From contig NZ_QGNJ01000014.1 in assembly GCF_003336875.1 (NCBI RefSeq), positions 1-64,000 on the forward strand: a stretch of DNA of 64,000 nucleotides, in the 5' to 3' direction. The translations under genes were made by a program, and so were the position numbers. Under the pieces are notes generated by a model. It did not search any database, had not been told where the DNA came from, and saw nothing but the letters and a program-made list of their open reading frames with translations. Below are positions 3,656 to 20,733 of the stretch, piece by piece; the first letter of the stretch is position 1; each line of letters begins with the position of its first letter. The stretch is from Oleisolibacter albus. Its GTDB lineage: Bacteria; Pseudomonadota; Alphaproteobacteria; Azospirillales; Azospirillaceae.

Positions 3656-4357
3656 TCAGGTCGGAATGGCCGGGACGCCGAACAGCCAGGGGTGCAGGTG
3701 CAGCAGGGCGCCATACAGCACCACCGTGACTGCCAGCCGCCACAGCCCGAACTCGCCGATGGCCCGGCCCAGGCTCTGTCGCCCGTCGAGGATGGCGGCG
3801 AAGGGCAGGAAGCTGGTGGTCTGCTCGAACCGTTCCCAGTCGAGGCCGCCGCTGGCGCGTTTCTTCGCATCCAGCAGGTTTGCCCCCACCAGTCCCAGGG
3901 CTGCCAGCGTGGCGAAGAAGATCAGACCGGCCAGATCGCCATTGGGCACCAGATGCGCCAGCCCCCACAGGCCGGCGGCCCAGAGGAAGGGATGGCGGGT
4001 GATGCGGACCAGGCCCTGGGCCGGCTCGGCCGCGGTCAGCGCCTTCTCCTGCCCCGCCAGCGTCGGGTTGCGGCCCAACAGCCCGCCCACGGCCAGCAGC
4101 AGGGCCAGCGGCATCAGCACCAGCGGCACCCAGTTCTGCCAGGGCGACCAGGACCAGACCGGTACATAGGGGGCCGTCCGGTAGGCCAGGATCAGCCAGG
4201 CCAGGGCGGCGAAGGCCACCAGTGAATAGAGGCCGCGATACGGCCCCTCGCCCAGCCGGTCCACCAGCACCGGCCGGATGCGCGGCGCTGCCAGCCCGAA
4301 ATGGCTTGCCAGCAAAAAGGCGCCGGCCAGGGCCAGCCCCCAGATCGTGCCCACCAT
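3656..4357 (-). CDS. NnrU-family integral membrane protein
   Basis: A 233-residue, seven-helix-like membrane protein. The segment HFGLAAPRIRPVLVDRLGEG, the following GLYSLVAFAALAW, RITRHPFLWAAGLWGLAHL and WERFEQTTSFLPFAAILDGR are typical of the NnrU family, first named in nitric-oxide/nitrite reductase clusters and related to isoprenylcysteine methyltransferase-like membrane proteins. No denitrification gene lies nearby, so a role in nitrogen oxide metabolism is not supported here. I placed the start at ATG 4357 (MVGTIWGLALAG), because the upstream frame is basic and unlike the family and a purine-rich GAGAGACGGGAC lies just before. Confidence 0.88.
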   Translation of the reverse strand: MVGTIWGLALAGAFLLASHFGLAAPRIRPVLVDRLGEGPYRGLYSLVAFAALAWLILAYRTAPYVPVWSWSPWQNWVPLVLMPLALLLAVGGLLGRNPTLAGQEKALTAAEPAQGLVRITRHPFLWAAGLWGLAHLVPNGDLAGLIFFATLAALGLVGANLLDAKKRASGGLDWERFEQTTSFLPFAAILDGRQSLGRAIGEFGLWRLAVTVVLYGALLHLHPWLFGVPAIPT

Positions 4358-4549
4358 GTCCCGTCTCTCTCTCTCGCTTGCCCGATCCCGGATGCATCCT
4401 GCCGCAAAGGCGCGACACGGGACAGATCCTCTCGGGACCGGAACGGCCGGTCCGCGCCCTCTCCCGTGATCTTCCACCCGTCAACCTGTCAAGAAAGGGC
4501 GCTACTCTGCCGCGCCGACCACGCGCCTGTTCGTCCGGAGACCGTCTGC

Positions 4550-5896
4550 ATGCCCTGGCTGACCCCGCCGCGTCCGGCCCTGCTGGCCGTGTTCCTGCTG
4601 TTGCTCCCCCTGCCCGCCGTCGCCGTGGATGCGCCGCTGCCGGCAGTGCTGGAGGGACACGCGGTGCTGCCGGCCATGACGCGGATCGATCCGCCGGCCG
4701 ATGCGCCGAATCTGGTTCGCAGCAGCGGCAAATTCACCGGCCCCGGCAACAGGCGGGCCGGGGTGGAGGCGGCGCCGGGCAGCCAAGGAGGCACCCTGCC
4801 CGTGCCCGGCCAGCCGCTACAGGGCATCTCCAGCCTGCGGCGGGGACCGGACGGCAGCCTGTGGGGACTCTCCGACAATGGCTTCGGCGCCAAGGCCAAT
4901 TCGGCCGATGCCCTGCTGCCGATCCACCGGCTGCGGCTGAACTGGCAGACCGGTGCCGTCGAACGGCTGCAGACCCTGTGGCTTTCCGATCCCGACCGGC
5001 GTTTCCCTTGGCCGGTCACGCTGGAAGGCAGCGAGACGCGCTATCTCACCGGGGCCGATCTCGATCCGGAAAGTCTGGTCGTGACAGCCGATGGCTTCTG
5101 GGTCGGCGACGAGTTCGGCCCCTGGCTGTTGCGCTTCGACCGGCAGGGTCGCCTCCAGGCCCTGTACGAGACCGAGGTGGACGGACGTGTCGTCCGCTCC
5201 CCGGATCATCCGCAGGTGCGGTTGCCGGCAACGCCGGATCAGCCCGCGATGTTCGAGGTGGGGCGCTCCCGCGGGTTCGAGGGGCTGACGGCCAGCGCCG
5301 ATGGCACCCGGCTCTATGCCCTGCTGGAAGGGCCGGTGTGGAACGAAGGCCAGCCGGAGCGCTGGGCCGATGGCAAGCTGCGCCTGCGCTGGCTGGAGTT
5401 CGATCCCGCCGCCGGGCGCTGGACCGGTCAGGACCGGGTCTATCCGCTGGAGGCCGAGGGCAATGCCATCGGCGAGGCGACACTGCTGCCGGACGGGCGC
5501 CTGCTGGTGCTGGAACGCGACGAGGGCGAAGGCGATGCCGCCCGCGCCTGTGTCCATGGCCAGCCGGCCACCGGCTGCTTCCGCCGCCCGGCCCGGTTCA
5601 AGCGGCTCTATCTGCTGCGGATGGAGGGGGGTGACGGCAGCACCCTGATCAAGCAGGGTCATGTGGATCTGCTGGCCATTCCGGACCCGGAGCGGCGGGC
5701 GCGGCAGGGCGGGGCCGGGGACCGCTTCCGCTTTCCCTTCGCCACCATCGAAAGCGTGGTTTTCCTGGGGGATGGGCGGGTGGTCGTCGCCAACGACAAC
5801 AACCTGCCCTTTTCCGCCGGACGGGCGCCGGACCGGCCCGATGATACGGAGTTCATCCTGCTGCGCATCCCGGCACTGACGGCACCCGTCGAGTGA
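4550..5896 (+). CDS. Exported esterase-like activity of phytase family protein
   Basis: A 448-residue protein with a clear Sec signal (MPWLTPPRPALLAVFLLLLP, cleavage probably after VAVDA). After about residue 85 it shows the repeated beta-strand pattern of the esterase-like-phytase family (GISSLRRGPDGSLWGLSDNG, DPESLVVTADGFWVGDEFGP, GFEGLTASADGTRLYALLEG), ending in SVVFLGDGRVVVANDNNLPFSAGR. Family members are assigned from a Rhizobium/soil phytase fragment with esterase activity; the true substrate is uncertain. Two Cys in ACVHGQPATGCF may form a disulphide. The start at 4550 has GGAG 9 bases upstream. It is transcribed divergently from the NnrU-like gene. Confidence 0.88.
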   Translation: MPWLTPPRPALLAVFLLLLPLPAVAVDAPLPAVLEGHAVLPAMTRIDPPADAPNLVRSSGKFTGPGNRRAGVEAAPGSQGGTLPVPGQPLQGISSLRRGPDGSLWGLSDNGFGAKANSADALLPIHRLRLNWQTGAVERLQTLWLSDPDRRFPWPVTLEGSETRYLTGADLDPESLVVTADGFWVGDEFGPWLLRFDRQGRLQALYETEVDGRVVRSPDHPQVRLPATPDQPAMFEVGRSRGFEGLTASADGTRLYALLEGPVWNEGQPERWADGKLRLRWLEFDPAAGRWTGQDRVYPLEAEGNAIGEATLLPDGRLLVLERDEGEGDAARACVHGQPATGCFRRPARFKRLYLLRMEGGDGSTLIKQGHVDLLAIPDPERRARQGGAGDRFRFPFATIESVVFLGDGRVVVANDNNLPFSAGRAPDRPDDTEFILLRIPALTAPVE

Positions 5897-5944
5897 TCCG
5901 CCCGCCCGGCCGGACCCGATGGGGCAAACCCACCGGGACCTGTC

Positions 5945-6580
5945 TCAGTGCATCCAGCCGGGGAACAGGTTGCGCAGGCCGGTGGCGATGATCTCCACCG
6001 CGATGGCAGCCAGCAGCAGACCGAACAGCCGGTTCATGATGTTCAGCCCGGTTTGGCCCAGCTTGCGGCCGATGGGAACGGCCAGCCGCAGCGCCAGATA
6101 GATGCCGAAGCAGACCAGGGCCACGCTGCCGACGACGATGGCGGCATGTTCCCAGCCGCTCCCGCGCTGCATCTCGATGATGACGGCGGAGATGGAGCCG
6201 GGGCCGGCCAGCAGCGGCATGCCCAGGGGCACCACGCCGATGGCGGTGCGCTGCTCGGCCTCGGCGGCCTCGGCCGGGGTCTGCTTCACCGGCGACACGG
6301 TGGCGTTCAGCAGCGACAGGGCGATCAGCAGCAGCACGATGCCGCCGCCGACGCGGAAGCTGTTGAGGCTGGTGCCGACCACGGCCAGCACGGCGTCACC
6401 CAGGAAGGCCGAGCCGATCAGCACGCTGGCCACTGTCAGCGCCGCGGAGCGGGCGATGCCCGCCCGCTCCCGGTCCGACCGCCCCTCCGTCAGCCCGAGG
6501 AAGATCGGGATGGCGGCAAAAGGCGTCAGGATGGCGAACAGCGAAATCAGGAAGCGGGAATATTCGGGCCAGGGTTCCAT
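5945..6580 (-). CDS. MarC-family integral membrane protein
   Basis: A 211-residue protein with six predicted membrane helices; the motifs FAILTPFAAIPIFLGLTEG, GGGIVLLLIALSLL and PLGMPLLAGPGSISAVI define the MarC/YchE family. Despite the name, members are not established as multiple-antibiotic resistance determinants and their substrate is unknown. Its start lies 1 base after the lysS stop codon, so it is almost certainly co-transcribed and translationally coupled with the tRNA synthetase gene. Confidence 0.92.
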   Translation of the reverse strand: MEPWPEYSRFLISLFAILTPFAAIPIFLGLTEGRSDRERAGIARSAALTVASVLIGSAFLGDAVLAVVGTSLNSFRVGGGIVLLLIALSLLNATVSPVKQTPAEAAEAEQRTAIGVVPLGMPLLAGPGSISAVIIEMQRGSGWEHAAIVVGSVALVCFGIYLALRLAVPIGRKLGQTGLNIMNRLFGLLLAAIAVEIIATGLRNLFPGWMH

Positions 6581-8848: not shown

Positions 8849-9481
8849 TCATTCCCGCCGGCGCTTGAGATAGACATAGAAGGCGCCGCCTCCGCCATGC
8901 TGGGGCTGAGCCTGGTGAACCGCCAATACCAGGGCACGGAAGGCAGCCTCGTTCAGCCAACGGGGGACGGCGGCGCGCAGCACACCCTCTCCCCGCGGAA
9001 CGCCACCCTTGCCGGTGATGACCAGCAGCAGCCGGCGGCCCTGGGCGTGGCTGCTGCGGACGAAAGACAGCAGCCGGTCATGGGCCTCGGCCTGGGTCAG
9101 CCCGTGCAGGTCGATGCGCCCGTCGATGGGCAACCGGCCGCGGCGCACCTTCTCCTCGGTGCGCTTGTCGATGCCGGCCTTGGCCCCCAGCGGCGATGGG
9201 GCCAGATGCAGCCGCACCGCCGCCTTCTCCTTCACCGGCAGCGTGCCCAGAAGCTGGGCCAGCCGCTCGGCCGGGCCGGGCAGCCGTCCGCCGACGGCGG
9301 AAACCGGGGGGGCAAGGGCGGTCTTGTCCGCAGTCCTGTCGGCAGCCTTGTCCGGCACCGGCGGGGCGGCCGGCTTGGCCGCGGCGGGGCGGCGGGGGCT
9401 GACCAGCGGCTGGGCGTCGCGGGTCACCAGCCGCCACAGCTCAAGCTCGGCGGCCGAGGGGGATCGGCGGCGCTCAACCAT
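8849..9481 (-). CDS. Smr/MutS2 C-terminal domain endonuclease-like protein
   Basis: A 210-residue protein. Residues 1-105 are Ala/Pro/Lys-rich and probably disordered. The C-terminal half carries the Smr domain: RIDLHGLTQAEAHDRLLSFV gives the LDxH-type (here DLHG) motif, and LVITGKGG gives the TGKG motif. Stand-alone Smr proteins are nicking or RNA-cleaving nucleases; bacterial members are linked to rescue of stalled ribosomes. The ATG (9481) lies 8 bases inside the end of lutC, so it is translationally coupled to the lactate genes, although the functional link is unclear. Confidence 0.9.
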   Translation of the reverse strand: MVERRRSPSAAELELWRLVTRDAQPLVSPRRPAAAKPAAPPVPDKAADRTADKTALAPPVSAVGGRLPGPAERLAQLLGTLPVKEKAAVRLHLAPSPLGAKAGIDKRTEEKVRRGRLPIDGRIDLHGLTQAEAHDRLLSFVRSSHAQGRRLLLVITGKGGVPRGEGVLRAAVPRWLNEAAFRALVLAVHQAQPQHGGGGAFYVYLKRRRE

Positions 9482-10196
9482 GGAGGGGCTCGGCTCCATG
9501 GGCCGGAGGGCCGACAAGGATGATGTGCAGCCGGCCGGGGCCATGGGCGTGCAGCAGCGAGGTCTGCTCGATGTCGGCCGTGCGCGACGGCCCGGTCACC
9601 AACGTGACCGCCCGCGGCATGCCCAGGCCACGGTCGGCCTGGCGCCGCCGCAGCCGGTCCCAGGCCTCCTCATAGACACCGACGATGTCGGCGGCGGACA
9701 GCACCACCAGATGGGTGTGGGGCAGGAAGGCCAGGGGGGCCGCATGGTCGGCGCCGCTGGCCAGCAGCAGGCTGCCGGTTTCCGCCACTCCGGCCAGGGC
9801 GGCGGTGACACAGACCGGATCATCGGCCCGGGCCGGGCCGAACCCCACCTCCAGCGTCGGCCGCCGGTCCCAGGGAATGGCCTGCAGGGCGGCATCCGGG
9901 GCCACCCGCACCCGCGCCGGCAGATTGTGGGCCGACAGATAGTCGGCCACGGCATGGGGCACCCGGCCCGGCTCGGCCACCGGCTCCACCGTGGCCGCGA
10001 CCAGCGTGGCCATGCGCTGGAACAGCTCCACCTGCTGCGGTGGCGGCACCTGGCCGCGGGCGGGGATCAGATTGCGCGGCGGCGCCGCCAGCCGTTGCTC
10101 CACGGCGGCGCGGGCGGCGGTCTCGTCGCGCACGGTCGCAACGGCCCGGCGGATTGTGCCCAGGATGGTGTCGCGGGGTGTGTCAGGGGCGGGCAC
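9474..10196 (-). CDS. lutC: Lactate utilisation protein C (LUD domain)
   Basis: A 240-residue YkgG/LutC protein, a component of the LutABC L-lactate oxidase complex. The LUD core shows VCVTAALAGVAETGSLLLAS and HLVVLSAADIVGVYEEAWDR, followed by the TGPSRTADIEQT motif that marks this subfamily. I chose the GTG at 10196, which overlaps the lutB end by 14 bases and has GGGAG 7-8 bases upstream; the longer in-frame extension lies entirely inside lutB. Third gene of a tight lutA-lutB-lutC-smr operon. Confidence 0.92.
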   Translation of the reverse strand: MPAPDTPRDTILGTIRRAVATVRDETAARAAVEQRLAAPPRNLIPARGQVPPPQQVELFQRMATLVAATVEPVAEPGRVPHAVADYLSAHNLPARVRVAPDAALQAIPWDRRPTLEVGFGPARADDPVCVTAALAGVAETGSLLLASGADHAAPLAFLPHTHLVVLSAADIVGVYEEAWDRLRRRQADRGLGMPRAVTLVTGPSRTADIEQTSLLHAHGPGRLHIILVGPPAHGAEPLHG

Positions 10197-11607
10197 GCTG
10201 GCTCTCCCGATACAAATCCTGGAAGGTGCGGCCGGTGGGGGCGGGAAAATCCCGCGCACCGGTCCAGCCCCCGGCCAGCGGCAGATAACGGAAACGGCCG
10301 CGGCGGCCGCCCATCGTGCCCAGCAGCCCCATGCCCAGCCGGGTTGTCAGCCGGTAAAGGCCGGGCCGGCGGGCGAGGAAGGCCCAGAGCCCCAGCCCCC
10401 AGCGCTGCGGCCCGGGGGACAGTCTGGCCGCCGCCTCCTTCTCCCGCCATAGGCGCATCAGCCGGGGCAGGGGGATGCGCACGGGGCAGACGCTCTCGCA
10501 GCGGCCACAGAAGGTACTGGCATTGGGCAGATGCCGCGCCTCCTCCAGCCCGATCAGGGCCGGATCGATGACGGCACCGATGGGGCCAGGATAGACCCAG
10601 CCATAGGCATGGCCGCCGACGGCGTGATAGACGGGGCAATGGTTCATACAGGCGCCGCAGCGGATGCAGCGCAGCGCCTCCTGCATCTCGGTGCCCAACA
10701 GGGCGCTGCGGCCATTGTCCAGCAGCACCACATGGAACTGCTCCGGCCCGTCCAGGTCGTCCGGCCGCCGCGGCCCGGTGCTGAAGGTGGTGTAGGTCGA
10801 CAGTTCCTGCCCCGTGGCCGAGCGGGCCAGCAGCCGCAGCAGAGTGGAGGCGTCCTCCAGCGTCGGCACCACCTTCTCGATGCTGGTCAGCACCACATGC
10901 ACGCGCGGCAGGCTCTGGGTCAGGTCGCCATTGCCCTCGTTGGTGACGATGACGGTGCTGCCGGTTTCCGCGATCAGGAAATTGGCGCCGGTGATGCCCA
11001 CATCGGCGGCCAGGAACTTCTCCCGCAGCAGCACCCGCGCCTCGGTCAGCAGGTCGGAGGGCTCCGACAGCGACCGGGCCGGGTCGAGATGGGTGTGGAC
11101 GCGGCGGAAATCCTCGGCCACCTGCTCCTTCGACAGGTGCAGGGCCGGGGCGATGATGTGGCTGGGCGCCTCCTTGCGGATCTGGATGATGTATTCACCC
11201 AGATCCGTCTCCACCACTTCCAGCCCGGCCTCCTCCAGGGCCGCGTTCAGCCCGACCTCCTCCGACACCATGGATTTGCCCTTGGTGACCATGCGGGCGC
11301 CGGCCGCGCGGCAGATGGAGAGGATGGCGGCGCGGGCCTCGGCCGGTGTGCGGGCCCAATGCACCTGGCCGCCGGCGGCCGTGACCTTGGCCTCGAACCG
11401 CTCCAGATACAGGTCGAGATGAGCCAGGGCATGGTCCTTGATGCGCTTGCCCTCGTCCCGCAGGGCCTCGAACTCCGGCAGGGCCGCCACGGCCTGGGCC
11501 CGCTTCAGCGGGAAGCCGGTCTTGAATTTGGTCAGCGCCCGGGTCAGGTCCGGGTCGGCCATGGCGGCGCGGGCGCGCTCCTTGAAGGCGTGGGAGGCGG
11601 GGATCAA
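10183..11607 (-). CDS. lutB: Lactate utilisation iron-sulfur protein B
   Basis: A 474-residue LutB subunit: an N-terminal LUD domain (residues about 60-290, with SMVSEEVGLNAALEEAGLEV and NFLIAETGSTVIVTNEGNGD) followed by two 4Fe-4S ferredoxin motifs, CIRCGACMNHCP near residue 312 and CGRCESVCPV near residue 363. It passes electrons from lactate oxidation within the cytosolic/membrane-associated Lut complex. The start overlaps the lutA stop (ATGA), so the two are translated in coupled fashion. Confidence 0.95.
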   Translation of the reverse strand: MIPASHAFKERARAAMADPDLTRALTKFKTGFPLKRAQAVAALPEFEALRDEGKRIKDHALAHLDLYLERFEAKVTAAGGQVHWARTPAEARAAILSICRAAGARMVTKGKSMVSEEVGLNAALEEAGLEVVETDLGEYIIQIRKEAPSHIIAPALHLSKEQVAEDFRRVHTHLDPARSLSEPSDLLTEARVLLREKFLAADVGITGANFLIAETGSTVIVTNEGNGDLTQSLPRVHVVLTSIEKVVPTLEDASTLLRLLARSATGQELSTYTTFSTGPRRPDDLDGPEQFHVVLLDNGRSALLGTEMQEALRCIRCGACMNHCPVYHAVGGHAYGWVYPGPIGAVIDPALIGLEEARHLPNASTFCGRCESVCPVRIPLPRLMRLWREKEAAARLSPGPQRWGLGLWAFLARRPGLYRLTTRLGMGLLGTMGGRRGRFRYLPLAGGWTGARDFPAPTGRTFQDLYRESQRARP

Positions 11608-12374
11608 GACTTGCCCCCACCGATGGGCGGAGCGGACAGCTCCCCGGCCAGGATCTCGGCCACATGACGCACCGCCACGGGACTGCCCAGCCGGTGCAGC
11701 CGCCCGGCCATGTTCATCAGGCAGCCCATATCGCCGGCCAGCAGGGTATCGGCCCCGGTGGCGGCCACGGCCGCTGCCTTGTCCGACACCATCTTGGCCG
11801 AGATCTCCGGATATTTGACACAGAAGGTCCCGCCGAAGCCGCAGCAGACCTCCGCCTCCGGCAATTCGGTCAGGCGCAGCCCTTCCACCCCGGCCAGAAG
11901 CCGGCGCGGCTGCTCCTTCACCCCCAGTTCGCGCAGGCCGGAACAGCTGTCGTGATAGGTGACATGGCCGTCATAGCGCGCCTCCACCCGCTCCACCCCC
12001 AGCACATCGACCAGGAAGCTGGTCAGCTCATGGGTGCGGCGGGCCAGATGATGGGCCTTGGGTCCCCATTCCGGGTCATCCTTGAACAACTCGGGATAGT
12101 GCAGCCGGACCATGCCGGCGCAGGAGCCGCTGGGGGCCACCACATAGTCGCAGTCGGCGAAGGCCCGGATCATGGCCTTGGCCAGATCCGCCGCCGCCGC
12201 GCGCTCGCCGCTGTTCCAGGCGGGCTGGCCGCAGCAGGTCTGCTCCGGCACGACGACGGTGCAGCCGGCCTGTTCCAGCAGCCGCACGGTGGCGAAGCCC
12301 ACGGCTGGCCGCATCAGGTCCACCAGACAGGTGACCATAAGCCCCACACGGGGTGATTTGGCATCCACGGGCAT
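11604..12374 (-). CDS. lutA: Lactate utilisation protein A (CCG-domain)
   Basis: A 256-residue heterodisulfide-reductase-like subunit with two CCG repeats: EQTCCGQPAWNSG near residue 47 and EVCCGFGGTF near residue 188, together with conserved Cys in MVTCLVDL, GSCAGMV and HDSCSGL. These bind an iron-sulfur cluster. The ATG at 12374 has GGAG 5 bases upstream; an in-frame ATG 11 codons earlier is possible but less well supported. First gene of the lut operon. No LldR/GntR regulator is seen beside it. Confidence 0.95.
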   Translation of the reverse strand: MPVDAKSPRVGLMVTCLVDLMRPAVGFATVRLLEQAGCTVVVPEQTCCGQPAWNSGERAAAADLAKAMIRAFADCDYVVAPSGSCAGMVRLHYPELFKDDPEWGPKAHHLARRTHELTSFLVDVLGVERVEARYDGHVTYHDSCSGLRELGVKEQPRRLLAGVEGLRLTELPEAEVCCGFGGTFCVKYPEISAKMVSDKAAAVAATGADTLLAGDMGCLMNMAGRLHRLGSPVAVRHVAEILAGELSAPPIGGGKS

Positions 12375-12497
12375 GGCGGCTCCGGGCGAAGGGATAGGCA
12401 TCAGCATGCCGGTGAAACAGTAGGGCGGCCGCCCCGGCTCGGCAATCCGGCGAATATGGGGGGCCGGCGTGCGCCGCCGGGCGGTCTTCCGCCTGGA

Positions 12498-14993
12498 TCA
12501 GGCCGGGACAACCGACCCGCCGCCATGCTGCGGCGGGCCATCCTGCGGCAGGCCGGCCGCCGCGGACGGCGGATGCAGGGGCAGACGGCAGAGCACGGTG
12601 GTGCCCTGGTCGGGATTGCTCTGGATGTCCAGGGTGCCGCCATGCAGTTCGATGAAGCTCTTCACCAGGGCCAGTCCCAGACCGGCACCGGGGGTCCCCG
12701 CCCCGCCCTGCCCTCGCTCGAACCGGTGCAGGACGCGCTCCTGGTCCTGGCGGGGAATGCCGACGCCGGTATCCGAGACCGACAGCAGCACCCCGTCCCC
12801 GTCACGGCAGGCCCCGATGGTGATATGGCCACCGGCTGGCGTGAATTTGATGGCATTGCTGACCAGGTTGAACAGGGCCTGTTTCAGGCGCTTCTCATCG
12901 CCTTCCATCAGTCCGGGGCCGTCGGTGATGGCGACCCGCAGGTCCAGCGCCTGTTTGCGGGCCCAGTCCCGCGTCAACCCGGCCACCGACTGCACCAGCT
13001 GCGCCACATCGACGACATCGCGGTCCAGCACCATATAGCCGGCCTCGATGGTGGCGAGGTCCAGGATGTCGTTGACCAGGACCAGCAGTCGGCGGCTGGC
13101 CTCCAGCACCCCGCGCGCATATTCCAGCTGGCGCGGATTCAGCGCACCGAAATACTGATTATGCAGGATTTCGGCGAAGCCCATGATGGCGTTCAGCGGT
13201 GTGCGCAGCTGATAGCTGACATTGGCGATGAACTCGGACTTCAGGCGGTCCGCAGCCTCCAGCGCCTCATTGCTGGCGCGCAGCGCCTGCTCCACCCGGA
13301 CACTGTCGCTGATGTCCAGGCAGGACAGCAGCACGGCCCCGTCCGGCAGCGGCACCTGGGCATAGCGGATAACGCTGCCATCGGTCAGGATCAGGGTCCC
13401 CCCGACGGGCACCCGCTCCAGCAGGCGCCCGGCCAGAACCTGCCGCTGCTCCTGCCAGTCGCTGCCGTCGTCCAGCAGTGGACGGAAACGGTCGATCAAC
13501 TGGCCGGCATGGGGTTCGCCCCAGAGATCGTCCGGCGGCACCCGCCACAGCCGGGCGAAGGCCGGGTTCGACAGTTTCAGGCGGCCATCGCCGCCGAACA
13601 CGGCCACGCCCTCGGCCAGATTGTCCAGCGTCTCCTGCTGCACGGCCATCAGGGTGTTGTAGGAGGATTCCAGCGCCAGCGTGTGGGTGACATCCTCCAG
13701 CACATACATCAGCCCGCCGAAGGGATGCGGCACCGACAGGGTGCGCAGCGTGCGCCCGTCCGGCAGATGCATCAGATCTTCCATCGGCTCCAGCAGCGAG
13801 GTGAATTCGGCCAGCCGCCGCCGCTTCCACTGGGCGAAATCGACCTCTTCCGTCAGTTTCCGCCGGGCGCGGAGATCCTCCAGGATCTCGCCGTAGAGCG
13901 GCTCGCCGGCCAGCCAGTCCTCATTGAGATCCCAGAGCCGGGCATAGGCCCGGTTGTAGAAGCGCAGGCGCGTATCCGCCCCATAGATGGCGATGGCCGA
14001 TCCCAGCTGTTCCAGCACCTCGCCATGGGCGGCGACATGGCGGTCCAGCTCGTCGCGCAGCTCGCGCTCGCGGGTCCGGTCGACAGCGAACCCCAGCAGC
14101 CCGTCCGGGCCGGGCAGCATGCATTCCGTCAGCTCGAACAGCCGGCGCTCGCCATTGACCACGAGGAAGCGGCTTTCGCTCTGGGCCGTGCCGGATTCGC
14201 GCGCCTGCAGCGCCAGGGCCCGCGGCGGATAGCCGAACCCCGCCGCCGGCAGTTCCAGCTGCCTGTCCACCACCTGCTCGGGCGATGAATCCAGAAGGTG
14301 GGCGAAAGCCTGGTTGCACCAGAGCAGCCGGGTATCGCGCGCCCGGCGCCAGAGCGGCATGGGCAGGGTGTCCAGCATGCGCAGCAAGGCCTGCTGTTCC
14401 GCCTCGATGGCCCGTCGTGCCGCGCTCTGGCTCTGGATCTCGTCTGTTTCCGCGGTGATGTCGCGCAGAACGAGCAGGGGCACCGCCGCATCCTCGCCCG
14501 CCGTCCCGCGCCGGCCCATCGCCTGGAGGGTCCGGCTGCCATCGGCGAGGCGGACCGTGATGGTGAAAGGCTGTCCGGTCCTGCGCAGATGGGCGAACGA
14601 CCCATGCAGGGCGGCGGCATCCGACGGCGCCAGCGCCTGCTCGATCGACTCCAGCCCGCGCAGCCGTTCCCGCCCCAGCAGCGCGGCCAGACCGGCACCG
14701 GCGGCATGGCCCGTTCCGTTCTCCGCTTCGGCGAACCAGATGTCCGGCATGCCATTGACCAGCGCCCGCAGGCGGCGCACCTCCGCCCCTGTCGTCTCCA
14801 ATGCCTGGTGCAGCCGGCGGAAGCGCCGCCACAGGCCCAGCAGGCAGCCGCCAGCCAGAAACGCTGCCCCGGCCAGGACCGGGCCATGCCACATCGGCGT
14901 CGCCGCGCCAGAGGGCGGGAGAAGGTGGCTGCCAGCCAGCGCCAGGACCGCAGTGCCCAGGCCAGCGACATATATCCTGACGTCCGGCTTCAC
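12498..14993 (-). CDS. divL: DivL-like PAS sensor kinase with Tyr in place of the phosphoacceptor His
   Basis: 831 residues: two N-terminal membrane helices (about 8-25 and 36-57), four PAS-like regions (about 68-190, 200-320, 325-440, 445-570), a dimerisation/phosphoacceptor helix, and an HATPase domain with N box (LVSNAIKF), G1 (DTGVGIP) and G2 (GAGLGLAL). The H box reads NVSYQLRTPLNAI: Tyr594 occupies the His position. This is the hallmark of DivL, the essential Caulobacter cell-cycle regulator (769 residues, Tyr550) that acts through CckA and DivK rather than as a normal kinase. It lies downstream of ahcY with a terminator between. The family assignment is inference from the Tyr, the PAS array and length; it could also be a rapidly evolved PAS kinase. 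Confidence 0.75.
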   Translation of the reverse strand: MKPDVRIYVAGLGTAVLALAGSHLLPPSGAATPMWHGPVLAGAAFLAGGCLLGLWRRFRRLHQALETTGAEVRRLRALVNGMPDIWFAEAENGTGHAAGAGLAALLGRERLRGLESIEQALAPSDAAALHGSFAHLRRTGQPFTITVRLADGSRTLQAMGRRGTAGEDAAVPLLVLRDITAETDEIQSQSAARRAIEAEQQALLRMLDTLPMPLWRRARDTRLLWCNQAFAHLLDSSPEQVVDRQLELPAAGFGYPPRALALQARESGTAQSESRFLVVNGERRLFELTECMLPGPDGLLGFAVDRTRERELRDELDRHVAAHGEVLEQLGSAIAIYGADTRLRFYNRAYARLWDLNEDWLAGEPLYGEILEDLRARRKLTEEVDFAQWKRRRLAEFTSLLEPMEDLMHLPDGRTLRTLSVPHPFGGLMYVLEDVTHTLALESSYNTLMAVQQETLDNLAEGVAVFGGDGRLKLSNPAFARLWRVPPDDLWGEPHAGQLIDRFRPLLDDGSDWQEQRQVLAGRLLERVPVGGTLILTDGSVIRYAQVPLPDGAVLLSCLDISDSVRVEQALRASNEALEAADRLKSEFIANVSYQLRTPLNAIMGFAEILHNQYFGALNPRQLEYARGVLEASRRLLVLVNDILDLATIEAGYMVLDRDVVDVAQLVQSVAGLTRDWARKQALDLRVAITDGPGLMEGDEKRLKQALFNLVSNAIKFTPAGGHITIGACRDGDGVLLSVSDTGVGIPRQDQERVLHRFERGQGGAGTPGAGLGLALVKSFIELHGGTLDIQSNPDQGTTVLCRLPLHPPSAAAGLPQDGPPQHGGGSVVPA

Positions 14994-15116: not shown

Positions 15117-16528
<1,412 letters not shown>

Positions 16529-17617: not shown

Positions 17618-17861
17618 GCCTCGTTCCCTCTGCTGGCCAGGTCGCCTCGAGGGCGGCGAGCAGGTGTCATCACCGTAGCACGATGCTTACCAGCAAAACG
17701 ATCCGGGCTGATGCGTCTCCGCCACAATGCCTATCGGAGCAGCCTATCAAGGGTTTTGGCTGCTTAACGGGAAGCATTTTCGTCATTGCGCAGAACCGTC
17801 ATGCGGGCGTCATCCAAGTTTAATTTTGTTTACGCATGCACGTAACACAGCTCCGGCAAAG
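17618..17861. other. Divergent control region upstream of the TonB receptor
   Basis: No gene. It becomes A/T-rich toward the receptor (AAGTTTAATTTTGTTTACG around 17816-17834), the likely promoter region, but I cannot fix a -35/-10 pair with confidence. Confidence 0.45.
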
Positions 17862-17883
17862 CCCTCCTACCAATCGAGGAGGG
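17862..17883 (+). promoter_or_regulatory. Hairpin sequestering the receptor's Shine-Dalgarno sequence
   Basis: CCCTCCT (17862-17868) pairs perfectly with AGGAGGG (17877-17883), with an 8-base loop. The right arm is the ribosome binding site of the TonB-dependent receptor gene, so folding would block initiation. Confidence 0.55.
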
Positions 17884-17892
17884 GGGTGTCCT

Positions 17893-20733
17893 GTGCGTAT
17901 GCGTCTGCAGAGTGTCCTGTTGTCCGCCACGGCCCTGGCGGCGGGCTTGTCCATCGGTGCGGCCTGGGCGGGCGAGATCACCGGCCGTGTGGCCGCCAAT
18001 GGAGGGAACATCTCCCTGGCCGGCGCCGCGGTGGAACTGGTCGAACTGGGCCGCAAGACCACGACGCAGACCGACGGCAGCTATCGCTTCCCGGAGGTTG
18101 CGGCGGGCACCTATACGCTGCGCACCTCCTATGCCGGCGGGACGTCGGTGGAGCAGAAGGTCCAGGTTCCGGCCACGGGTGCGGTGTCGGCCGATATCGC
18201 CCTGGGCGACGGGGGGACGCTGGAGGAGATCGTCATCATCGGCCAGCGCGCCAATCTGGCCAGCACCGTGTCGCGCCAGCGTGCGGCCGATGGTGTCGTC
18301 AGTGTCGTCACCCGTGACAGCGCTGGCCAGTTCCCCGATCAGAACGTGGCGGAATCGGTGCGCCGTCTGCCCGGCGTCAATGTGCTGAACGATCAGGGCG
18401 AAGGCCGCTTCATCGCTGTCCGCGGCCTTGATCCCAACCTCAACGCCGCCTCCATCAACGGGGTGCGCACGCCGGCGCCGGAGGCGGACATCCGGTCCGT
18501 GGCCCTGGACGTGATCCCGACCGAGCTGGTGGAATCCATCGAGGTCAAGAAGACCCTGACCCCGGACATGGACGCCGACACCATCGGCGCCTCCATCGAG
18601 ATCAACACCACCAGCGCGCTGGAACGGCGCAAGCCCTATATCGGCGCCAAGCTGGAGGGATCGTACAATGACCAGTCCAGCGCCTGGTCGCCCAAGGGCA
18701 GCATCGACTTTTCCGGCATGGCCACCGACCGGCTGGGTGTGGCCGGCGGTTTCTCCTACTACAAACGCAAGTTCGAGACCGACAATGTCGAGGCCGAGGG
18801 CTGGAATGAGGAGAATGGCGCCACCTACGCCGAGAAGATCGAATATCGCGACTATGACGTGACCCGCGAGCGCATCGGCGGCTCGCTGTCCTTCGATTAT
18901 CTGGCGGACGACAACACCACCCTCTATCTGCGCGGCATGTACAGCCAGTTCGACGACCAGGAGTATCGGCGCCGGCTGGCTTTCGACATGGAGGATGCCG
19001 TTCCCAACAGTGGCTCCGACCACACGGCCAATTTCAACAGTGCCGATGGCGAGCGCTTCACCGTCATCCGCGACCTCAAGGACCGCTTCGAGCGCCAGAC
19101 CATCGCCACGGTCACGGCAGGCGGCGAGACCAGGCTCGATGCCTGGGTCTTCGATTATTCCGCTGCCTATTCCAAGGCCAGGGAGAAGGAGGATGGCTCC
19201 ATCGACCCGGCCCGCTTCCGCCAGCGCTTCAGCGGCAGCGGATCCAGCGCCGGCGCCGTCAGCTTTGATTTCAGCGATCTGGGCAAGCCCAGCTATAACG
19301 TTACCACGGGCGGCGCCAATTTCCTCAATGCCAGCCGCTACAGCTTCTATCGCCTGGAAGAGACCGATCTCAGCCTGTCCGAGGATGAGGAATGGTCGGC
19401 CAAGGCGGATGCCACCCGCACCTTCGCCCTGGGACAGGGCACCGTCGATCTGAAGGTTGGCGCCAAGGCCCGGCTGCGTGAGAAGAGCCACGATCTCAAC
19501 ATCAACTATTACGACGGCTATGACGGCAGTCTGACCCTGGCGGACATGCAGGGCCATTCGACCTACGGCATCGCCGCCATCGACCCGGTGCCCGCCAAGA
19601 AGAGCATGGCCGATTTCTTCCATGCCAATCGCGGCAAGTTCAAACTCAGCGATGTGGACACGGCCTATGAGTCCGCCATCGCCGACTATGGCGTCGATGA
19701 GGACATCTATGCCGGCTACCTCATGGGCCGCTATGACGGCGGTCCGCTGCGGCTGATCGGCGGTGTCCGCGTCGAGCGGACACGGGACAAGATGCGGGGC
19801 AGCGAGGTGGAACTGGTGGCCGAAGGGGCCACGCGCAACGGCGTCACGCTGGACGAGGACACCGTGTTTCTGACGCCGGTCGATTTCTCCAAGACCTACA
19901 CGGACTGGCTGCCCAGCCTGTCGCTCCGTTATGAGGCGGCCGACGATGTGGTGCTGCGGGCCGGCGTCTTCCGCAGCGTGGTGCGCCCCAACATGGGTCA
20001 GATCGCGCCGCGCTTCCTGGTGGAGGAGTCCGAGGATGGCGATCGTGAAGGCGAATTCGGCAATCCCGACCTGAAGCCCTACCGGGCCTGGAACTTCGAC
20101 GCCTCGGCCGAATGGTATCTGGCGCGCGAAGCCGTGCTGTCCGGTGGTGTCTTCTACAAGTCGATCAAGGATTACATCGTCACCAGCAAGCGCGAGGACG
20201 GCAGCTTCAACGGCATTGCCTTCGACGAAGCCCTGATCCCCATCAATGGCGACACCGCCAAGGTCAAGGGCTTCGAGGCCAACTACCAGCAATCGCTGCT
20301 GTTCCTGCCGGAACCGCTGGATGGGCTGCTGGTGTCGCTCAACTATACCTACACTGATGCCGATGGCGACGTGCCGCTGGAAGGCGGCGGCACCCGGAAG
20401 ATCCCGCTGCCGGCGTCCTCCAAAAACACCTATACGGCCGTGCTGGGCTACGAGAAGGGGCCGATCAGCCTGCGCGTGGCCGCCACCTACCGCAGCGGCT
20501 ATCTGGACGAGTTGGGGGCCAGCGCCGAGGAGGACCGCTACGTCAAGGATCATCTGCAATGGGATGTAACGGGCAAATACACGCTGACCGACAACATCCA
20601 GCTCTTCGGCGAACTGATCAATCTCGGCAACGAGCCCTATCTGGCCTATCAGAAGGGGCCGAACGGCGACCGGCTGCTGCAGTATGAGGAGTACAGCTGG
20701 ACCGGCAAGATGGGCGTCCGCCTGACCTACTGA
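17893..20733 (+). CDS. TonB-dependent outer-membrane receptor (phytase-linked)
   Basis: 946 residues from GTG 17893 (ATG 17899 is an alternative two codons later). It has a Sec signal (VRMRLQSVLLSATALAAGLS..., cleavage near AAWA-GE), an N-terminal carboxypeptidase-regulatory-like beta domain (residues about 28-110, GRVAANGG to VSADIALGD), a TonB box LEEIVIIGQR near residue 113, a plug (VVTRDSAGQFPDQNVAESVR, VNVLNDQGEGRFIAVRGLDP) and a 22-strand barrel ending in the aromatic terminus GKMGVRLTY. The next gene is a 3-phytase, so an inositol phosphate or other phosphorylated ligand is a plausible, not proven, cargo. Translation is probably controlled by a hairpin over its ribosome site. Confidence 0.93.
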   Translation: MRMRLQSVLLSATALAAGLSIGAAWAGEITGRVAANGGNISLAGAAVELVELGRKTTTQTDGSYRFPEVAAGTYTLRTSYAGGTSVEQKVQVPATGAVSADIALGDGGTLEEIVIIGQRANLASTVSRQRAADGVVSVVTRDSAGQFPDQNVAESVRRLPGVNVLNDQGEGRFIAVRGLDPNLNAASINGVRTPAPEADIRSVALDVIPTELVESIEVKKTLTPDMDADTIGASIEINTTSALERRKPYIGAKLEGSYNDQSSAWSPKGSIDFSGMATDRLGVAGGFSYYKRKFETDNVEAEGWNEENGATYAEKIEYRDYDVTRERIGGSLSFDYLADDNTTLYLRGMYSQFDDQEYRRRLAFDMEDAVPNSGSDHTANFNSADGERFTVIRDLKDRFERQTIATVTAGGETRLDAWVFDYSAAYSKAREKEDGSIDPARFRQRFSGSGSSAGAVSFDFSDLGKPSYNVTTGGANFLNASRYSFYRLEETDLSLSEDEEWSAKADATRTFALGQGTVDLKVGAKARLREKSHDLNINYYDGYDGSLTLADMQGHSTYGIAAIDPVPAKKSMADFFHANRGKFKLSDVDTAYESAIADYGVDEDIYAGYLMGRYDGGPLRLIGGVRVERTRDKMRGSEVELVAEGATRNGVTLDEDTVFLTPVDFSKTYTDWLPSLSLRYEAADDVVLRAGVFRSVVRPNMGQIAPRFLVEESEDGDREGEFGNPDLKPYRAWNFDASAEWYLAREAVLSGGVFYKSIKDYIVTSKREDGSFNGIAFDEALIPINGDTAKVKGFEANYQQSLLFLPEPLDGLLVSLNYTYTDADGDVPLEGGGTRKIPLPASSKNTYTAVLGYEKGPISLRVAATYRSGYLDELGASAEEDRYVKDHLQWDVTGKYTLTDNIQLFGELINLGNEPYLAYQKGPNGDRLLQYEEYSWTGKMGVRLTY

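Follow-up and report, generated by a model that had tools for sequence, protein, structure and literature searches.

A DivL orthologue of Oleisolibacter albus with tyrosine at the phospho-acceptor position, and relatives in which the residue is histidine

The DNA analysed here is a 64,000-nucleotide stretch of the Oleisolibacter albus genome (the window), and positions 12498–14993 of its minus strand hold a reading frame of 831 amino acids that starts with GTG, is open throughout (0 internal stops) and, by full-length matches and its place in a tree, is a divL orthologue. The N terminus of the product carries two hydrophobic stretches recognised by hydropathy, residues 7–25 (14919..14975, minus strand, as are all features of this gene) and 36–56 (14826..14888). 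The first coincides with low-confidence helices and the second with a helix at residues 37–80 in an AlphaFold model built on 29 aligned DivLs (mean pLDDT 74.5, pTM 0.40), in agreement with the two membrane helices of a preliminary description of this sequence; membrane insertion is predicted. Several PAS domains follow. The four PAS-like regions of that description hold, one of them with reserve. The three clear ones are PAS 2 (residues 205–305; 14079..14381), matched by Pfam PAS_4/PAS_8 at about 205–310; PAS 3 (residues 327–439; 13677..14015), matched by PAS_7; and PAS 4 (residues about 457–566; 13296..13625), a second PAS_7 stretch whose limits were placed from the model. The model shows PAS-like folds for these at about 205–305, 327–434 and 457–560. 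The remaining region, PAS-like region 1 (residues 85–177; 14463..14741), is a doubtful, low-confidence fold taken from AlphaFold secondary structure only, and Pfam has no match over these residues.

The PAS region leads into a HisKA or DHp domain (residues 585–652; 13038..13241; Pfam 66.7 bits, cut-off 26.9) and a HATPase_c or CA domain (residues 698–807; 12573..12902; Pfam 102.8 bits), and both the DHp hairpin and the CA domain are present in the model. The H box reads FIANVSYQLRTPLNAIMGF, and its acceptor position is occupied by Tyr594 (codon TAT, 13212..13214); the phospho-acceptor histidine of canonical HisKA kinases of the PleC/DivJ type is absent. The ATP motifs are intact, with Asn713 in the N box, DTGVGI at 741 (G1) and GAGLGL at 769 (G2), so that the preliminary reading of a Tyr-bearing H box among otherwise unbroken HisKA/HATPase motifs is confirmed.

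The preliminary description also placed the gene beside ahcY, and here too it was right: adenosylhomocysteinase (15117..16427, minus strand; TIGR00936 655 bits, over cut-off; also supported by synteny) is on the same strand, 123 bp upstream of divL. The arrangement is widespread in the class. With >60% identity to the window's ahcY as the threshold, ahcY was found upstream of divL on the same strand at 73 of 121 class-level loci and downstream at 2; it was not found at 37 that had at least 1.2 kb of upstream sequence, and 9 had too little sequence. Of 80 loci retrieved with the Caulobacter DivL query, 7 had ahcY downstream on the same strand and the other 73 showed none. In Brucella, ahcY is described upstream of divL in the bvrRS operon (PMC9491525). 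Beyond divL in the window are three genes (9474–12407, minus strand): a LutA-like gene, whose best NCBIfam matches are below cut-off, precedes one for a LutB/LldF-type iron-sulfur protein (TIGR00273, over cut-off), and a 261-amino-acid protein without an NCBIfam match, which we read as LutC-like, comes last. On the plus strand, 17836–20733 encodes a TonB-dependent receptor of the TonB-Xanth-Caul subfamily (TIGR01782, 613 bits).

Several comparisons place the gene in the DivL family. Against the HisKA proteins of C. vibrioides DSM 9893, of which 30 of 43 HisKA places were covered, the best full-length match of the window protein was DivL at 404 bits, the next reaching 176. In the reverse search, Caulobacter DivL was compared with the window protein and with 28 of its genome's 42 other HisKA places; it matched the window protein best, at 404 bits, and the next kinase of that genome reached 116. 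The kinase domain alone, by contrast, matched DivJ and PleC (174 bits) better than DivL (152 bits), and a tree was therefore built. It compared 106 HisKA-HATPase domains (tree A; MAFFT alignment, a quick method with SH-aLRT support and no bootstrap, leaving out L291, the same gene as L108, and the weak rows L296, L297, L308 and L313), and in it all 53 DivL rows, Caulobacter's included, formed a single clade (SH-aLRT 99). PleC, DivJ and three of the O. albus kinases joined this clade as its nearest relatives (SH-aLRT 88), and all 26 other O. albus kinases in the tree, these three among them, fell outside the DivL clade; the DivJ row (L269) scored 1072 bits against an NCBIfam cut-off of 1000, and the PleC label (L274) was assigned from length and similarity. 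The HisKA-HATPase phylogeny that the preliminary description had proposed as a check on its DivL assignment thus nests the gene within DivL, and the reciprocal best match agrees. The orthology rests on the tree together with the PAS region, and the gene is an ordinary new DivL orthologue, a member of a known family.

Structural comparison points the same way. Searched by sequence, the PDB returned Caulobacter DivL (4q20, itself NVSYELRTPL) as top match, and in a fold search with the DHp-CA part of the model 4q20 ranked 4 and 5. Among the 25 listed of 85 NCBIfam models that match the window protein, none is named for DivL. At E 1e-60 or better, 58 of 59 genomes of the family and 159 of 289 of the class have a DivL match, and at E 1e-55 so do 81 of 82 of the order.

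We compared the acceptor residue across these relatives. The 82 genomes of the order divide into 35 with Tyr, 45 with His, one with Ala and one without a match. A class-level tree (tree B) comprises 149 DivL rows and 4 outgroup rows, after the exclusion of 27 duplicate or near-duplicate loci, another 10 loci from Azospirillaceae and 74 of the 80 Caulobacter-query loci; its DivL rows carry Tyr in 115 cases, His in 18 and another residue in 13, and 3 are without the region. Loci added later (L326–L365) are outside tree B and the ATP-site table; 21 of them enter the Azospirillum table, 14 the synteny count, and L347, L348 and L355 the residue comparison. The Caulobacter-query loci, mostly from Caulobacteraceae, have Tyr in 80 of 80. 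Since Tyr is present in 35 of the 81 gene-bearing genomes of the order, the window's included, the Tyr594 codon is not an error. The same count, together with Tyr in 115 of 146 tree rows, weighs against the gene being an ordinary PAS histidine kinase, not DivL, that recently acquired Tyr by a point change; such an origin would fit the intact state of the other kinase motifs and the single base that separates TAT from CAT, but the tree and the reciprocal best matches put the protein in DivL, and we rejected chance Tyr in an ordinary kinase as scarcely credible.

Tyrosine is nonetheless not fixed, nor is it diagnostic of DivL, as the preliminary description had taken it to be: only 115 of the 146 rows carry it, and all 45 sampled Azospirillum genomes have His. 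That description had also taken His in relatives of the gene as grounds for refuting a DivL assignment. Such relatives exist, but they branch from within DivL and have lost Tyr secondarily: on the best class tree His arises by 4 changes, at least 3 of them forced by starred branches, all within Tyr lineages. The 2014 structure paper (PMC4211667) holds that all DivL homologues keep Tyr apart from that of M. magneticum, which has Ala, a statement that needs amending to admit the natural His forms as exceptions. In the open-access literature (subscription papers were mostly beyond reach) we found no report of a natural His-form DivL. In another genus of the family (g7) the DivL gene (L043 of genome G006, 4031–6523) has Ala at the acceptor position of a badly eroded H box (GIAAQLRMALVAI), with an eroded ATP site, and recalls the Ala reported for Magnetospirillum.

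The preliminary description suggested that, given orthology, the CckA/DivK cell-cycle wiring would extend to this lineage. The partners bear this out: among 59 family genomes, DivK (70–81% identity) and CckA were matched in 59, CtrA in 58 and ChpT (PF10090) in 57, and the genome of the window itself has a match for all four. The DivK, CckA and CtrA queries were Caulobacter sequences, with matches counted by similarity, and a PF10090 control over 14 genomes matched in Caulobacter only. The extension is not new: for Magnetospirillum and Rhodospirillum, PleC-DivK and the phosphorelay were already described in a 2010 survey (PMC2877005). In a 2021 survey (PMC8116508), chpT, cckA and divL were detected in only 27–36% of the Rhodospirillales genomes, and divergent forms were suspected to have been overlooked; judged by sequence similarity, all three are nearly universal in the Azospirillaceae sampled here. 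The ctrA and chpT genes of the window's genome are about 7–8 kb apart (G000:C44:56735-57421 and 64771-65124), and a similar spacing in other members of the Azospirillaceae, G049 and G035 among them, marks a possible conserved neighbourhood.

How DivL works has been described in Caulobacter (PMC4211667), where the protein has neither kinase nor phosphatase activity and binds DivK~P, the Y550H form is a DivK~P-stimulated autokinase that causes growth and shape defects, and T557N breaks DivK~P binding. The window protein is an orthologue with the same domain order, Tyr594 and intact ATP motifs in a genome that holds all the partners, and by analogy it likely binds DivK~P, controls CckA and has a cell-cycle or motility output. 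We consider it highly probable that it is a membrane-anchored, multi-PAS pseudo-histidine-kinase with a Caulobacter-like DivK~P-CckA role. With Tyr594 in place of His, the DHp/CA module would be unable to accept phosphate and would instead bind phosphorylated DivK as a sensor; the PAS region would relay the DivK~P state to CckA, and CckA-ChpT-CtrA phosphorylation would be raised or lowered as a result. Across the family, Tyr would be the lock that stops an otherwise ATP-competent module from phosphorylating, a lock that appears to have been replaced several times; in Azospirillum, His took its place and it was the ATP site that was destroyed.

Five Caulobacter positions are known at which mutants disturbed DivK~P binding or fitness. 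The window protein retains two of them, R553 and A601; in the other three, T557 is replaced by Asn, Y562 by Phe and H579 by Tyr. As T557N breaks binding in Caulobacter (PMC4211667), DivK binding is not simply transferable to the window protein. Asn is the rule at this position in the family (88 of 115 Tyr rows), and is therefore no sign of a changed partner. The three differing positions are one reason to consider that the protein is DivL by descent yet does not act through DivK and CckA, for instance through Tyr phosphorylation or another response regulator. A second reason is the conservation of ATP motifs that a pure docking platform would not obviously need, and a third the title of a 1999 paper, listed among the references of PMC3577659, which calls DivL a bacterial tyrosine kinase. 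We judge this reading improbable: nearly every family genome searched retains DivK, CckA, ChpT and CtrA, autophosphorylation of Caulobacter DivL was not observed (PMC4211667), and Asn at the T557 position is usual in the family.

DivL is a well-studied bacterial pseudokinase that keeps Tyr alongside a conserved ATP site. We tabulated the state of six ATP-site residues for the rows of tree B; all six are canonical in 99 of the 115 rows with Tyr, 2 of the 18 with His and 4 of the 13 with another residue (6 of 31 non-Tyr rows together), with the states of weak rows, as read from MAFFT alignments, possibly off. The association between Tyr and an intact site has a Fisher p of 3.5e-12 when relatedness is ignored. 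Corrected for relatedness it reduces to 8 independent pairs, of which on average 3.9 agree, 0.0 oppose and 4.0 show no difference (median p 0.125). There are 16 rows with Tyr and a broken site, among them the family genera g6, g9 and g11, and 6 non-Tyr rows with an intact one. Outside the family, four His-bearing proteins, L093 (family f93) and L235, L347 and L348 (three genomes of one f42 genus), combine His and an acidic H+1 residue with six intact ATP-site residues, and by these motifs look like real kinases; L251, also of f93, has His with a broken ATP site. The pattern, not significant after the relatedness correction, is suggestive of Tyr as a lock that matters chiefly where the ATP site is functional, an idea that fits the DivK~P-stimulated autokinase activity and cellular harm of Caulobacter Y550H (PMC4211667).

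The other kind of His form is that of Azospirillum, a group (g12) named on the basis of a 10-kb region of G049 that matches a plasmid of Azospirillum sp. TSH58 at 100% identity. All 45 sampled genomes have His at the acceptor position, and in all 45 the N-box Asn, which ATP binding requires, has given way to Gly, Ala, Ser, Thr or Val. In most, G1 is shortened or replaced and G2 altered, least so in L044. Against the 102.8 bits of the window protein, HATPase_c scores 63.9, 43.9 and 19.5 bits in three Azospirillum proteins, and since the first two exceed the cut-off of 26.4 the CA fold is probably kept. No PF10090 match was listed for these three DivL proteins in the Pfam scan. The sampled Azospirillum genomes keep the rest of the CtrA pathway. 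On an Azospirillaceae tree built without the H box and CA domain, used to order ATP-site erosion against the Tyr-to-His change, the eroded rows form three groups, and a single clade of eroded rows is neither rejected (p-AU 0.167) nor shown; the tree does not establish that erosion preceded the change to His.

One account of the Azospirillum His is plain drift at a site freed from selection once ATP binding was lost. Broken-site rows elsewhere carry Ala, Ser, Leu, Lys, Gln, Thr, Arg, Glu or Phe, which speaks for drift, and the CA domain is clearly decaying, with a mean identity of 0.52 in 11 thinned Azospirillum rows (0.64 in 9 intact Tyr rows). But DHp identity holds at 0.78 in the same Azospirillum rows (0.84 in the Tyr rows), and His is invariant together with H595, L596, R597, P599 and L600 (45 of 45). 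We regard drift as plausible though somewhat doubtful.

The surroundings of the gene differ as well. At none of the 22 Azospirillum divL loci with wider flanks was ahcY seen, and at 19 of these 22 (drawn from the 45 genomes) a hybrid kinase lies directly upstream of divL on the same strand. Its domains are PAS, HisKA, HATPase, two REC stretches and Hpt, with HAMP below cut-off, and a TorS sensor domain is listed in one of the two that were scanned. The other three loci comprise one at a contig edge, one with a 41% match to the first 319 residues (G041) and one with no match (G056). A tie between the hybrid kinase and His is not established: G041 and G056 have His with no hybrid kinase in place, and the matches listed in a search of these two genomes were partial and confined to the kinase core. 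At 15 loci of other genera (one of them without upstream sequence) and in the window, there was either no match or a partial kinase-core match. At most, this placement suggests the hybrid kinase as a phosphate source for the restored His. Tentatively, and as a reading we hold to be unlikely as a whole, DivL would have two interchangeable locks: most DivLs would block phosphorylation with Tyr and retain a working ATP site, in the Azospirillum stem the ATP site would have been broken and the acceptor His restored, giving an ATP-independent phospho-His carrier or phosphatase that might exchange phosphate with DivK or with the upstream TorS-type REC-REC-Hpt hybrid kinase, and the His forms with intact ATP motifs (three genomes of one f42 genus and L093 of f93) would be active kinases again.

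We also asked how the acceptor residue relates to the presence of DivK. Among 50 hand-picked genomes, uncorrected for relatedness, a DivK of at least 60% identity is carried by 27 of the 28 whose DivL has Tyr, all 5 with His (none of them Azospirillum), 4 of the 14 with some other residue and 2 of the 3 whose DivL is kinase-less. By this similarity count, residues other than Tyr and His go with missing DivK and the return of His does not. The idea that His returns where DivK is absent was rejected, as DivK is present at 73% identity or more in all 5 non-Azospirillum His genomes. The kinase-less genes (L263, L264 and L265) encode the PAS part only, in open frames of 593–648 amino acids, and adjoin ahcY. 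Such a form is said to accompany the absence of DivK (PMC2877005); against this rule, two of the three genomes have DivK at 70–72% identity.

Together, these relatives form a natural series of Tyr with a live site, Tyr with an eroding site, His or Ala with a dead site and His with a live site, which makes the purpose of the DivL tyrosine testable. To explain the natural His forms the tree requires three or more separate changes, and a single one of these accounts for all sampled Azospirillum. They are natural counterparts of the harmful Caulobacter Y550H, which opens the role of the substitution to allele-swap tests.

Among known systems, Caulobacter DivL (4q20; PMC4211667) resembles the window protein in its Tyr H box, PAS-rich N terminus and intact N, G1 and G2 motifs, with 38% identity over residues 206–805; the two differ in the place of ahcY, which is upstream in the window and downstream at 7 of the 80 Caulobacter-query loci. 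The S. meliloti protein (L372) is 38% identical over 688 aligned positions and shares both the Tyr H box (HHVSYELRSPL) and an ahcY gene just upstream; it differs in what follows divL, which is tsaE in S. meliloti and the LutA-like/LutB pair in the window. PleC and DivJ, unlike the window DivL, have His in the H box. ChpT combines a DHp domain that carries phospho-His with a CA fold that no longer uses ATP, and it is this protein that Azospirillum DivL recalls in logic, with a His at the acceptor position beside a dead ATP site, a likeness that does not imply descent.
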